From Mycobacterium sp. (GTDB lineage Bacteria; Actinomycetota; Actinomycetes; Mycobacteriales; Mycobacteriaceae), in assembly GCA_020438845.1 (NCBI GenBank), contig JAGQTV010000062.1, forward strand, positions 1-33,042: a stretch of 33,042 bases of DNA, written 5' to 3'. The translations under genes and the position numbers were made by a program. This document shows, piece by piece, positions 3,580 to 33,042 of this stretch; the first letter of the stretch is position 1, and every line of letters starts with the position of its first letter. The notes beneath the pieces were generated by a model. The model saw nothing but the letters and a program-made list of their open reading frames with translations. It searched no databases and had not been told where the DNA came from.

Positions 3580-4641
3580 GTGCTGGATTTGCGCGCTGAC
3601 CCGATCGAATTGACCGCCGCGCTGGTCGACATCCCGAGCGTCTCCCGCGATGAAAGCCGGATCGCCGACGCTGTCGAGCAGGCACTGCGCGAGCAGACCG
3701 ACTACGAGGTCCTCCGCAACGGCGACGCCGTGCTGGCCCGGACCAATCTCGGCCGTCCCACCCGGGTGATCCTGGCCGGCCACCTCGACACAGTGCCGAT
3801 CGCCGACAATGTCCCCTCCCATCGCGACGCCGACCACATCTATGGCTGCGGGACGTCGGATATGAAGTCCGGCGACGCAGTGTTCTTGCACCTGGCTGCC
3901 ACGATTGCCGAACCGCGCCACGACATCACCATGGTCTTCTACGACTGCGAGGAGATCGAGGCATCGGCCAACGGCCTGGGCCGCATCGAGCGGGAGTTGC
4001 CCGACTGGCTGCTGGCCGACGTCGCGATCCTGGGCGAGCCGTCGGGCGGCTATATCGAGGCCGGGTGCCAGGGCACCCTGCGCGCGGTGGTGTCGGCCGC
4101 CGGGGTGCGGGCACACTCAGCGCGATCCTGGCTGGGCGACAACGCTATTCATAAGCTTGGCCCAGTGCTGGACCGATTGTCGTCCTATGCGGGGCGCATC
4201 GTCGACATCGATGGTTGCACCTATCGCGAGGGACTCTCGGCGGTGCATGTGGATGGGGGAGTGGCGGGTAACGTCATCCCGGATGCGGCCTCGGTGACGG
4301 TCAACTTCCGATTCGCGCCCGACCGCAGCCCGGCGGAGGCGCTGGACCACGTGCGTCAGGTGTTCGACGGACTCGACGTCCACGTCGAGCAGACCGACGC
4401 AGCACCCGGTGCACTGCCGGGGCTGTATCAGCCGGCTGCCGCCGCGCTCGTGGCCGCGGCCGACGGGATGGTTCGGGCCAAATTCGGCTGGACGGACGTG
4501 TCCCGGTTCGCCGCGTTGGGCATCCCGGCCGTCAACTACGGCCCGGGTGACCCGAATCTGGCCCACCGGCGTGACGAGCGAGTGTCGATCGCGCAGATCA
4601 CCGCGGTGACCGCCACTTTGGCCCGCTACCTGGGCGGCTGA
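3580..4641 (+). CDS. dapE: Succinyl-diaminopimelate desuccinylase DapE
   Basis: An M20-family di-zinc hydrolase that removes succinate from N-succinyl-LL-diaminopimelate, a late step of mDAP/lysine synthesis in the cytoplasm. From GTG 3580 it is 353 residues (M. tuberculosis Rv1202: 354). Visible motifs are the metal-binding AGHLDTVP (H68, D70), GTSDMKSGD (D94), the catalytic/metal pair in YDCEEIE (E124, E125), the dimerisation-domain GCQGTLR and RAHSARSW, and the C-terminal [15 protein letters not shown] with its zinc-ligand His. The frame stays open upstream to 3208, but the family N terminus [14 protein letters not shown] starts right at this GTG, and a -10 hexamer lies 8 nt upstream. Divergent neighbour of dapD, another enzyme of the same pathway. 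Confidence 0.95.
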
Positions 4642-30947: not shown

Positions 30948-31925
30948 CTATTGACCGGATCCGATGGTGAGGGTCGGACTGATAAGCGGAACGTCGAATC
31001 CTGATTTCAGTGTGATTCCTTGATTGGGTGCCGCCGGGGCGGCGGGCAGGTCAAAGACGGGCGGCACTGATCCGGCCGGATTGGGTATCGGTGCAAAGGG
31101 TCCTTCCGATGCCACAGGCGCATGGAAGTCGATCGGACCCATCGGATGCGGTACCTGCTGCGGTGTTACCTCCGGCAGTGACACGGCTGGGGGCGGCGAA
31201 CCGGCTGGAGGCGGCACCGGGGCCGCAGGTGTGACCTCCGGTGTCCTCACTTCGGGCGCAGTGACCACGGGCGCGGTGACCGCGGGAGCAGCGACTTCGG
31301 GTGCCGTGACCTCCGCAGCGGGAGGTGGTGGCGCGGCCGGTGTTACCGGGGCAACAGTGGGCGCGGGTGCGTTCACCGGATCCGCCGGGGTGTTCGCGAC
31401 CGGGGGGATGGTGTGCGCCGGAGACCCGGCTGCCTTCACCGGCGCCGGATACGCCGAAGGGACTACGACACCCTGGCTTCCGGATTCGCCGCCCGGCTGG
31501 GGGATAGCCGCATTCTTGGCGGGCTGAATGACCACCGGAGATGTTGTGGTCGGCAAGGCATCGGTGTTGACAACGGTGAGCACCAGCCCCCCGATGGCCG
31601 CGGCGACGAAGCCCGCCGCAATTCCGTAAAGCAGCATCGACGGGCGATACCGGGGTTCGGAAGCTGGTTCGTCGGCATCGGTGATTGGCACCGCCGGGGG
31701 CGAGCTCACCTCGGGTACGGAGTACTCCTCACCGGTATAGGGCAGCGGCTCGGCGAGGAAGTCGTCCTGCGACCAGGCCAGTGCCCGGAAGGTCGCCGAC
31801 TGCGACTCGGCCTCGAGGCCCGCCGACCACGCGCTCGGGGTTCGGCCAGTGACGGGCTGACATGCCGCGGTCGGGCCTGCAGCCGTCGGCTCGGACGTTT
31901 CGTGCGTCATGGCTGTGCTCGGCAT
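30948..31925 (-). CDS. Proline/alanine-rich single-pass membrane protein
   Basis: A 325-residue protein with a cytoplasmic head of about 95 residues, one membrane helix (97-120, MLLYGIAAGFVAAAIGGLVL) and a 200-residue extracytoplasmic tail. The tail is almost only Pro, Ala, Val and Thr, with repeated VTAPEV/APVVTAP blocks, ending in a small ordered segment (ITLKSGFDVPLISPTLTIG). Function unknown; it looks like a cell-wall spacer. ATG 31925 has GAAGGTGAG upstream; GTG 31934 and ATG 31910 are alternatives. Its 5' region is one arm of the 61-bp inverted duplication shared with the next gene, so both are probably expressed under the same signal. Confidence 0.75.
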   Translation of the reverse strand: MPSTAMTHETSEPTAAGPTAACQPVTGRTPSAWSAGLEAESQSATFRALAWSQDDFLAEPLPYTGEEYSVPEVSSPPAVPITDADEPASEPRYRPSMLLYGIAAGFVAAAIGGLVLTVVNTDALPTTTSPVVIQPAKNAAIPQPGGESGSQGVVVPSAYPAPVKAAGSPAHTIPPVANTPADPVNAPAPTVAPVTPAAPPPPAAEVTAPEVAAPAVTAPVVTAPEVRTPEVTPAAPVPPPAGSPPPAVSLPEVTPQQVPHPMGPIDFHAPVASEGPFAPIPNPAGSVPPVFDLPAAPAAPNQGITLKSGFDVPLISPTLTIGSGQ

Positions 31926-31950
31926 CGGTCTCACCTTCGTTTCGTCGCAG

Positions 31951-32011
31951 CCCCTGGTGAGCTGCTTTCACAGGTAGGTGCAGCCAGCCAGGATCTGGCG
32001 CACACTTTTTT
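31951..32011 (-). repeat. Left arm of 61-bp inverted leader duplication
   Basis: The 5' region of the proline-rich protein gene. It is the reverse complement of 32136-32196: a 25-bp block (31961-31985) and a 13-bp block (31999-32011) are identical, 8 of 10 outer bases match, and the 13-bp window between blocks differs. As RNA, GCTGC and GCAGC pair around a 15-nt loop. Confidence 0.9.
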
Positions 32012-32122
32012 GGGGAAATCTCTTCCGGCCCTCCTCGGAGAGCTCCGTCCGCAACATCTCGCATCCGACTGCAGCCCTAAACTCCGCCTCTCGCGGCGAG
32101 AAATACCTGTTCATCGGGCCAG

Positions 32123-32141
32123 AAAAAAAGTTTCGAAAAAA
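32123..32141 (+). promoter_or_regulatory. Paired A-tracts upstream of the secreted protein gene
   Basis: A7 (32123-32129) and A6 (32136-32141), about 12 bp apart, lie at the start of the right arm in otherwise GC-rich DNA. They suggest bent DNA or an UP-element-like site. Only the A6 is shared with the left arm. Confidence 0.35.
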
Positions 32142-32196
32142 GTGTGCGACCGGAGGGTGGCGGCTGCACCTACCTGTGAAAGCAGCCCATCAGGGG
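32136..32196 (+). repeat. Right arm of 61-bp inverted leader duplication
   Basis: Mirror copy of 31951-32011, ending 26 bp before ATG 32223, as the left arm ends 25 bp before ATG 31925. GGCTGC (32162-32167) and GCAGCC (32182-32187) can form a 6-bp stem with a 14-nt loop in the transcript. No TANNNT hexamer is placed for a leaderless start, and each gene has its own ribosome site. Confidence 0.9.
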
Positions 32197-32222
32197 CGGC
32201 GAACATCAATAAGGAGACTCAA

Positions 32223-32618
32223 ATGACCACCAACTCCATCCTCGCCAAACTCGGTGCGATGACCGCCGCTGTGACGGCGCCGGCGATGTTGTTCCTCGGC
32301 GCGGGTACCGCGCAGGCGAACATGACCGCATCGGGGGCTCCCGCCCCGGGCGGCGTCGATGTGTTTATCAATACGTGGCCGGCGAACCCCGGCGAATCCG
32401 CGCCCAGCGGTTGGTGCACCTACAACGCCTCGGTGATGGGCAACCCGATCGGCAAGCCCCTTCCGGCGATCAATGTTCCGTTCTATCTGCCGGACAACGG
32501 GCCCGGGGCGGGGGCAAGCTCCCGCCTGTGGTTCCCCAGCTATCCGACCGGCTCGACCTGGAACGTCTCGGTCGAGTGCCCCAATGCTGCTCCGCAGTTT
32601 TCACAGCTCGTCTGGTGA
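32223..32618 (+). CDS. Small secreted protein of unknown function
   Basis: A 131-residue protein. The signal peptide (LGAMTAAVTAPAMLFLGAG) has a clear AQA cut before NMTASG (about residue 32). The mature domain of about 100 residues has two Cys (SGWCTYN, SVECPN), probably one disulfide, and several Trp and Pro in a beta-rich pattern (GVDVFINTWPANPGE, LWFPSYPTGSTWNVSVEC). I do not recognise the family. ATG 32223 has AAGGAG 7 nt upstream. The frame is open upstream but the signal peptide fixes the start. Expression is from the right arm of the inverted leader; a strong palindrome 6 bp after the stop closes the gene. Confidence 0.8.
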   Translation: MTTNSILAKLGAMTAAVTAPAMLFLGAGTAQANMTASGAPAPGGVDVFINTWPANPGESAPSGWCTYNASVMGNPIGKPLPAINVPFYLPDNGPGAGASSRLWFPSYPTGSTWNVSVECPNAAPQFSQLVW

Positions 32619-32624
32619 AACCGG

Positions 32625-32665
32625 CGGTCCGGTACCGGCGAGCGTCATTCGCTGGTACCGGACCG
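32625..32665. terminator. Palindrome after secreted protein gene
   Basis: CGGTCCGGTACC (32625-32636) pairs perfectly with GGTACCGGACCG (32654-32665), with AGCG/CGCT as an inner stem. It starts 6 bp after the stop codon. No U tract, as is usual in mycobacteria. Being symmetric it could also be a protein-binding site in front of the sigma factor gene. Confidence 0.6.
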
Positions 32666-32715: not shown

Positions 32716-33042
32716 ATGACCGAAGCACTGGAGCTGGATCCCAGCCTCGGCGACGGTGATTTGGCGCGTGCGTCAGCAGAAGGTGATCGGCAAGCGTTCG
32801 CCGAGATCTATGATCGCTACGCTGACCGGCTTTATGACTTCTGTGTCGGACTGATCGGGGACCGTGACGCCGCGGCCGACTGCGTGCAGGACACCTTCTG
32901 CGTTGCTGCGAAAGACCTCGGGGGTCTGCGCGAACCCGACAAACTCCGCCCGTGGCTGTACTCGATCGCCCGCCATCATGCGATGCGCCGTCTTCGGCAC
33001 CGCTACCGCGAGGAGGTCTCTGATGAATTGCCTGACATGGTC
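32716..33042 (+). CDS. ECF-type RNA polymerase sigma factor, 5' part
   Basis: The first 109 codons of a sigma-70 family ECF sigma factor, cut by the right edge. Region 2 is clear: FAEIYDRYADRLYDFCVGLI, then DAAADCVQDTFCVAA and LRPWLYSIARHHAMRRLRHR (core binding and -10 recognition). Region 4 lies outside the window, so class and any C-terminal extension are unknown. It is a different paralogue from SigE. ATG 32716 is 8 nt after GGAGG; in-frame ATG 32701 is less likely because it contains that site. Its neighbour is a small secreted protein, and it may control that gene and the inverted leader, but this is untested. Confidence 0.88.
   Translation, partial: MTEALELDPSLGDGDLARASAEGDRQAFAEIYDRYADRLYDFCVGLIGDRDAAADCVQDTFCVAAKDLGGLREPDKLRPWLYSIARHHAMRRLRHRYREEVSDELPDMV

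Follow-up and report, generated by a model that had tools for sequence, protein, structure and literature searches.

We propose that the two arms of a 61-bp inverted repeat in a Mycobacterium sp. contig (JAGQTV010000062.1) are a divergent pair of promoters, each joined to the 5′ leader of an ECF-controlled gene, and on the sequence comparisons presented here we consider this reading very probable. The promoters of the repeat probably answer to a membrane-tethered sigma factor encoded next door, the putative cognate being the ECF protein that begins at position 32716 of the window (the whole stretch of DNA that was analysed, 33,042 nt in length).

Two conserved blocks in a 61-bp inverted repeat

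The right arm of the repeat (32136-32196, + strand) and the left arm (31951-32011, − strand) are identical at 49 of 61 positions, and at 46 of 48 when arm positions 14-26 are set aside. The arms share a 25-bp core and a 13-bp outer block without any mismatch, and the inverted copies described in an earlier note on this DNA, together with its figure of 46/48, were reproduced exactly. The repeat is beyond chance expectation: 25 bp is the longest exact inverted repeat between positions 31501 and 32700, compared with a maximum of 16 and a mean of 10.5 in 200 dinucleotide shuffles. Similarity between the arms continues for a few bases past their ends (31945-31950 and 32197-32202), into the hairpin described below. 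The ATG at 32223 follows the end of the right arm by 26 bp, and the ATG at 31925, a start picked by its ribosome site, follows the end of the left arm by 25 bp, confirming for both genes the distance reported earlier.

A first pattern scan covered 148 genus genomes and gave candidates in 11, including the genome of the window. Copies with both blocks (by eye) were kept from G033, G058, G111 and G144, and six genomes were dropped. The resulting sequence-only profile, R1, consists of ten sites; both window arms are among them, so that the arms' own R1 scores follow by construction. For the logo, we aligned 104 sites at E≤0.05 from 81 fetched loci, many of which had been chosen since they contained a motif match; L198 (100 bases), L012 and L013 were left out.

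The element consists of AAAAAGTGTSCG, about 18 free positions and then CTCCTA(CC). In the logo it reads AAAAAGTGT-S-CG, ~18 free positions and GCTCCTACC, followed by TRTGA and GC-R-GCCCA...GGGGC. GTGT and CTCCTA lie 21 letters apart in 99 of 102 sites, in a profile search that favours constant spacing. From the C of the −10 block to the chosen start codon the distance is 48-59 nt in 87 of 103 sites, the start codons having been chosen by our own scoring, which is biased to near starts. These are the dimensions of a promoter with a leader of about 40 nt. SigA-like −10 elements follow the consensus TANNNT. Given the fixed spacing, the position and the absence of a SigA-like TANNNT, we infer a −35 element AAAGTGTSCG and a −10 element CTCCTA(CC), with a free spacer of ~18 nt between them. 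Two conserved elements at fixed spacing precede both the operon of the ECF sigma factor itself and the targets, which is the layout of an ECF-dependent promoter. To our knowledge, CTCCTA is not the −10 element of any ECF group, and this counts against the ECF promoter reading.

The earlier note had suspected a selected function from the conserved-variable-conserved arrangement and its regular placement before the ATG, and this was borne out; the two blocks are conserved, and the start codon lies 48-59 nt downstream in most sites. The related proposal of a shared regulator site stands in part: selected function and a regulon are supported, but a promoter with −35 and −10 elements fits the two blocks better than an operator or a riboswitch.

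In the right arm, the logo of 104 sites and the arm comparison place the predicted −35 block AAAAAAGTGTGCG at 32136-32148 (+ strand). The variable 18-nt spacer at 32149-32166 is defined by the fixed GTGT-CTCCTA distance, and has little in common between the arms of one genome. The logo places the predicted −10 block CACCTACC and the conserved TGTGA at 32167-32179; transcription is predicted to start at ~32176-32179, and a Shine-Dalgarno-like AAGGAG follows at 32211-32216. In the left arm, on the − strand, the arm comparison assigns the predicted −35 block AAAAAAGTGTGCG to 31999-32011, and the logo and arm comparison assign the predicted −10 block CACCTACC with TGTGA to 31968-31980.

Two genomes with five or six paralogues of the sigma factor (G270 and G291; loci L148-L166) carry the variant −35 blocks GTGTGCG, GTGTCCG, GTGTGGG and GTGTCCC, perhaps one per sigma paralogue.

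A covarying hairpin in the leader

The right leader contains the hairpin GCAGCCC-ATCAG-GGGCGGC with one A/G mismatch (32182-32200, + strand), and the left leader contains GCAGCTC-ACCAG-GGGCTGC with seven pairs (31947-31965, − strand). GCAGC forms the 5′ arm and pairs with GGGGCTGC just beyond the end of the repeat arm. Pairing was counted in 73 of the 104 sites, those with a start codon 48-60 nt downstream and leaders no more than 90% alike. In these 73 leaders, 83.6% of the cells of the seven-pair helix were paired, compared with 35-47% when the helix was slid by 1-3 columns. Double-sided changes were seen in 30 cells (11.9±2.9 in shuffled and 7-17 in slid versions), and the covariation score of the helix was 0.190, compared with 0.101 for shuffled and ≤0.067 for slid versions. 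Six of the seven pairs showed double-sided changes, a count that does not exceed all slid versions, which reach 3-6. Across the hairpin, 81 of 494 cells were unpaired; the third pair was the weakest (27 of 71 cells unpaired), and this same pair is mismatched in the right arm. Of 79 leaders, 73 had an MFE below the average for dinucleotide-shuffled versions of the same leader (median z −1.4). A second group of 36 leaders, taken from further loci and at most 85% similar to the first group, gave the same outcome in 31 cases (median z −1.7).

In the covariance analysis that the earlier note had called for, pair counts support a 7-bp hairpin, whereas RNAalifold returned no consensus structure for the 73 leaders, perhaps due to local misalignment.

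A rather unlikely alternative is that the palindrome after the −10 block is the DNA operator of a dimeric repressor and not an RNA hairpin. The inverted GCRGCCC/GGGGCYGC, with its gap of roughly 5 bp, does resemble an operator. However, the two arms of the palindrome vary together, as ACCCGGC/GCCGGGT in L205 and GGCGCCC/GGGCGCC in L174, so that complementarity is kept rather than a consensus; because the arms change to unrelated complementary sequences, we favour RNA over an operator. The hairpins of the two window leaders have no U-run and leave the ribosome site uncovered, which makes a stabilizing or translational role likelier than termination. Most likely, the hairpin would serve to protect the 5′ end of the message or to set its translation.

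The neighbouring ECF sigma factor and its association with the motif

The sigma gene is the next gene after the right target. Its sequence is split between the end of the window (G000:C42), where the 5′ part at 32716-33042 (+ strand) matches Pfam Sigma70_r2 and is cut by the contig end, and the end of contig C84, with an exact overlap of 86 bp. By eye, the C84 portion holds the region-4 part, an HxxxCxxC motif and a hydrophobic stretch in the same order as in relatives, with a short tail. Three relatives were tested: all had Pfam r2 and r4_2, the latter passing its cut-off only in L060, and TIGR02937 scored above its cut-off in all three. The protein has Sigma70 regions 2 and 4 and no region 3, as expected of an ECF sigma factor, and a profile of 11 relatives matched the solved ECF sigma factors SigW, SigH, SigL and SigE (PDB) over the sigma part only. 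HxxxCxxC lies near residue 222 in 41 of 44 sigma copies, the other three being fragments of 98-109 aa, and the Pfam family zf-HC2 gave weak matches to the zinc-finger segment in 4 of 8 (best E 0.011). In the long class of these proteins a hydrophobic peak is found at 282-338 (by hydropathy only), and most full-length relatives have a tail that is mostly proline-rich.

A short class of ~250 aa (L192, L194, L195, L199 and L200) stops right after the zinc finger and has no membrane helix; it is perhaps a soluble, self-inhibited form. Separately, a 17-bp inverted repeat (94%) lies at 32625-32665, in the gap that separates the right target from the sigma gene, and a similar repeat (by eye) precedes the sigma gene of L196 (about 4121-4161), a locus with no detected promoter site. 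The repeat at 32625-32665 is a possible operon-internal terminator or attenuator.

The genome of the window has one more strong copy of the motif (C33:33806-33871), which also precedes an ATG. It thus has only three strong sites in total, and this counts against the regulon reading. A weak match at C95:8331 was taken as chance, since the stretch reads as coding by eye. Beyond this genome, R1 had matches in 142 of 396 genus genomes at E≤0.1, and in 80 of these at E≤1e-3, with sites upstream of exported-protein genes. This is the regulon-like spread for which the earlier note had proposed to search; its refuting outcomes, an absence of other copies and of conservation in relatives, are contradicted by the R1 matches and by nine divergent pairs. 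A laxer rescan of 17 chosen genomes gave matches at E≤0.5 in 15, with as many as 22 in one genome; the weakest of these matches are probably due to chance. One locus with a mycobacterial-type sigma gene and a divergent pair (L212, CAMCWJ010000153.1) comes from a metagenome bin titled Bifidobacterium breve, a title that is probably wrong.

Relatives of the sigma factor at E≤1e-15 were found in 80 of the 396 genomes, in a survey capped at 12 scored first-look candidates for each genome. At a motif threshold of E≤1e-3, 73 genomes had both motif and sigma factor, 7 the motif only, 7 the sigma factor only and 309 neither; expressed otherwise, the motif was present in 73 of 80 genomes with the sigma factor and 7 of 316 without it (Fisher p about 1e-62, ignoring kinship and with a threshold fixed once the list was known). 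When the threshold was relaxed to E≤0.1, 77 of the 80 sigma genomes had the motif, as did 65 of the 316 others, a fraction that measures background at that level.

The exceptions were of several kinds. When the seven motif-only genomes were searched with a longer sigma query, five had only distant sigma factors (28-31% identity) and two had nothing. In G051, G201, G260 and G285 a site runs toward a contig end that lies within about 510 bases, and the sigma operon may therefore be missing from these assemblies; the contig-end account does not cover G013, G220 and G366, which count against the sigma link. Among the sigma-only genomes, G187, G278 and G343 have weak sites at the expected place, whereas the rescan found no weak site in place in G008, G010, G255 and G288, again counting against the link.

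The motif was also found next to the sigma gene. Among the loci of the 30 best sigma matches, the window included, 28 had a same-strand site upstream (E≤3e-7 in 27 of them, 0.0012 in L103); no upstream site was seen in L096 or in L113, which has only 464 bases upstream. For 80 named ECF loci (the best 80 of 297 relatives), an upstream site on the same strand was present at E≤1e-3 in 51; 60 loci had a site anywhere and 20 had none at this threshold, and in L225 and L239 the upstream sequence is shorter than 450 bases. In the fetched loci, many of them fetched for the motif, 38 of 44 sigma copies had an upstream site and six did not. The site directly precedes the ECF gene itself in L169 and L162 and, more weakly, in L197 (E 0.0014) and L166 (E 0.012). 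The named sigma loci span Mycobacterium, Mycolicibacterium, Mycolicibacillus and Actinomycetospora. All six Actinomycetospora loci have sites at E≤1.2e-4, only that of L278 lying upstream on the strand of the sigma gene; the site of L276 precedes a frame whose start looks signal-like by eye. Seven further loci belong to other genera of the family: a site precedes the sigma gene at ~1e-5 in two of them, both from a single genus, and the remaining five showed no site at 0.5.

It is improbable that the blocks are instead sites for a transcription factor that acts with the housekeeping sigma factor, the nearby ECF gene being merely one of its targets. The A-tract and the conserved bases past the −10 block exceed the needs of many promoters, and ECF genes can be targets of other regulators. 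However, nearly all sites show promoter spacing and a fixed distance to the start codon, there is no conserved SigA-like −10, and the motif co-occurs with this particular ECF sigma factor.

A purely RNA element, a riboswitch or a protein-binding leader that extends across both blocks, is very improbable. The earlier note had suggested an RNA leader with a GCTGC/GCAGC stem; a covarying leader hairpin does exist, but the stem formed within the arms by the spacer GCTGC and GCAGC showed no covariation beyond shuffles (0.128, compared with 0.134) and was rejected. No Rfam family reached its gathering score in the window, and three matches in 31900-32260 were at chance level (E 1.2-6). A ~7-bp hairpin with a variable loop is also small for a ligand pocket.

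The preferred reading of the arms as promoters is consistent with a block-by-block comparison, which used 9 of 11 divergent pairs seen in the genome-scan list. In these nine genomes, the left and right arms of one genome were identical at 92% of positions in the −35 block and at 97% in the −10 block, whereas spacer identity was 43% between the arms of one genome and 63-64% between orthologous arms of different genomes. As the spacers are unlike and the blocks alike, we read the arms as two old promoters under selection at two blocks and not as a recent duplication. The suggestion that the arms are the terminal inverted repeats of a non-autonomous mobile element has the 61-bp inverted pair of the window in its favour but is scarcely credible, given that sites elsewhere precede unrelated genes, mostly singly, that the arms are old with diverged spacers, that the right arm had no match in plasmid or phage collections, and that neither paired ends at several places nor recent copies were found.

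Target genes, proposed mechanism and known systems

The targets are mostly predicted to be exported or membrane proteins. A hydrophobic stretch is present in 66 of 73 non-redundant target proteins, compared with 109 of 352 other ORFs from the same loci (odds ratio 21), and lies within the first 60 residues in 45 and later in 21, in agreement with the exported-protein regulon that had been envisaged at the outset. The targets include small proteins with signal-like starts and single-TM proline-rich proteins (by eye), and one OmpA-domain protein. In the window, the right target (32223-32618, + strand) is a 131-aa protein with a signal-peptide-like start by eye, and the left target (30948-31925, − strand) has one hydrophobic stretch and a long proline-rich part by eye; searches of Pfam and NCBIfam gave no match for either protein. 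The third copy in this genome (L011:5842-7889, G000:C33) leads a 665-aa protein without a Pfam match, whose Gly/Asn-rich repeats we take to be PGRS-like. The frame just upstream of it may be a truncated acyltransferase of the WS/DGAT type.

In the mechanism that we propose, the sigma factor would be a single chain carrying regions 2 and 4, the HxxxCxxC anti-sigma-like zinc finger, one membrane helix and usually a proline-rich tail. By analogy with ECF48, ECF52 and ECF53, it would stay inactive at the membrane and be released by cleavage in response to an envelope signal. The freed sigma factor would then transcribe many small genes for secreted and single-pass proline-rich proteins and, as its gene sits behind the right arm, would probably activate its own gene in a positive loop. 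Most of the messages would start alike, with ~3-6 nt, the ~7-bp hairpin and a short stretch to the ribosome site. We suggest, tentatively and at somewhat less than even probability, that a self-inhibited tethered sigma factor and a promoter-fused hairpin together stamp the messages with a stability or translation tag, both layers of membership residing in one 100-bp cassette.

An ECF sigma regulon with divergent promoters is of a kind already known. In the accessible part of PMC8999054, groups ECF48, ECF52 and ECF53 are described as having a C-terminally fused zinc-finger anti-sigma domain and a TM segment, with proteolytic release expected; the sole experimentally characterized case named there is IutY, of another group, and the ECF48 example comes from Mycolicibacterium chlorophenolicum, a species that also carries a relative of the present sigma factor (L264). 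Like these actinobacterial groups, the present sigma factor combines sigma regions, a zinc-finger motif, a TM segment after the finger (by hydropathy, in the long class) and a long extension in one chain (PMC8999054). The likeness is one of build, and, unlike those groups, the present family includes a short class without a TM segment. The accessible part of PMC8999054 gives no ECF48 promoter, and a promoter for the present sigma group was not found in the portions available of PMC9205884 or PMC7406223. SCO4117 of Streptomyces coelicolor (ECF52), which controls development and antibiotics, is described in the part available of PMC5826349 with the putative motif CSGYN-17-SRHA. It shares the order of sigma domain, zinc finger, TM segment and proline-rich extension, and autoregulation is suggested for it as well, but its carbohydrate-binding domain and its motif are not those of the present sigma factor (PMC5826349, same part). 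With respect to that domain, three full-length relatives had only sigma domains above cut-off, and the tail of the window's own sigma factor is short.

The 5′-terminal stem-loop of E. coli ompA stabilizes its message. Like it, the present hairpin lies a few nucleotides from the predicted 5′ end, has no U-run and leaves the ribosome site uncovered. In contrast to ompA, a single hairpin type here accompanies the promoters of an entire sigma regulon and shows covariation between paralogous sites. Literature searches on the letters of the motif and on a sigma regulon with a leader stem-loop gave nothing relevant; no description of the promoter code, of the exported-protein regulon or of the hairpin coupled to the promoters turned up in the literature searched, which did not cover the main ECF classification paper.

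The motif provides a testable promoter code for one-chain sigma/anti-sigma proteins, the targets of which are little described in the literature searched, and would link these proteins to many exported proteins of environmental mycobacteria, most of those tested having no family name. Because any target promoter can serve as a reporter, the signal sensed by the outer tail becomes testable. A covarying hairpin attached to the promoter is unusual, as sigma regulons are usually defined by DNA signals alone, and if the hairpin matters, the regulon would gain a second, RNA-level layer.

Behind some sites we observed peptides of 61-75 aa in which a leader like ALRRQSIRTLTADELRIAHGG precedes Gly/Thr repeats (L163:2142-2360; L192:3932-4120, − strand; and L200, downstream of 4865 and 4426, − strand). 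The L192 peptide matched the NCBIfam class I lanthipeptide leader NF038153 only below cut-off (E 0.013), and the L163 peptide did not match this model; it is possible that these small peptides are RiPP-type precursors within the regulon.
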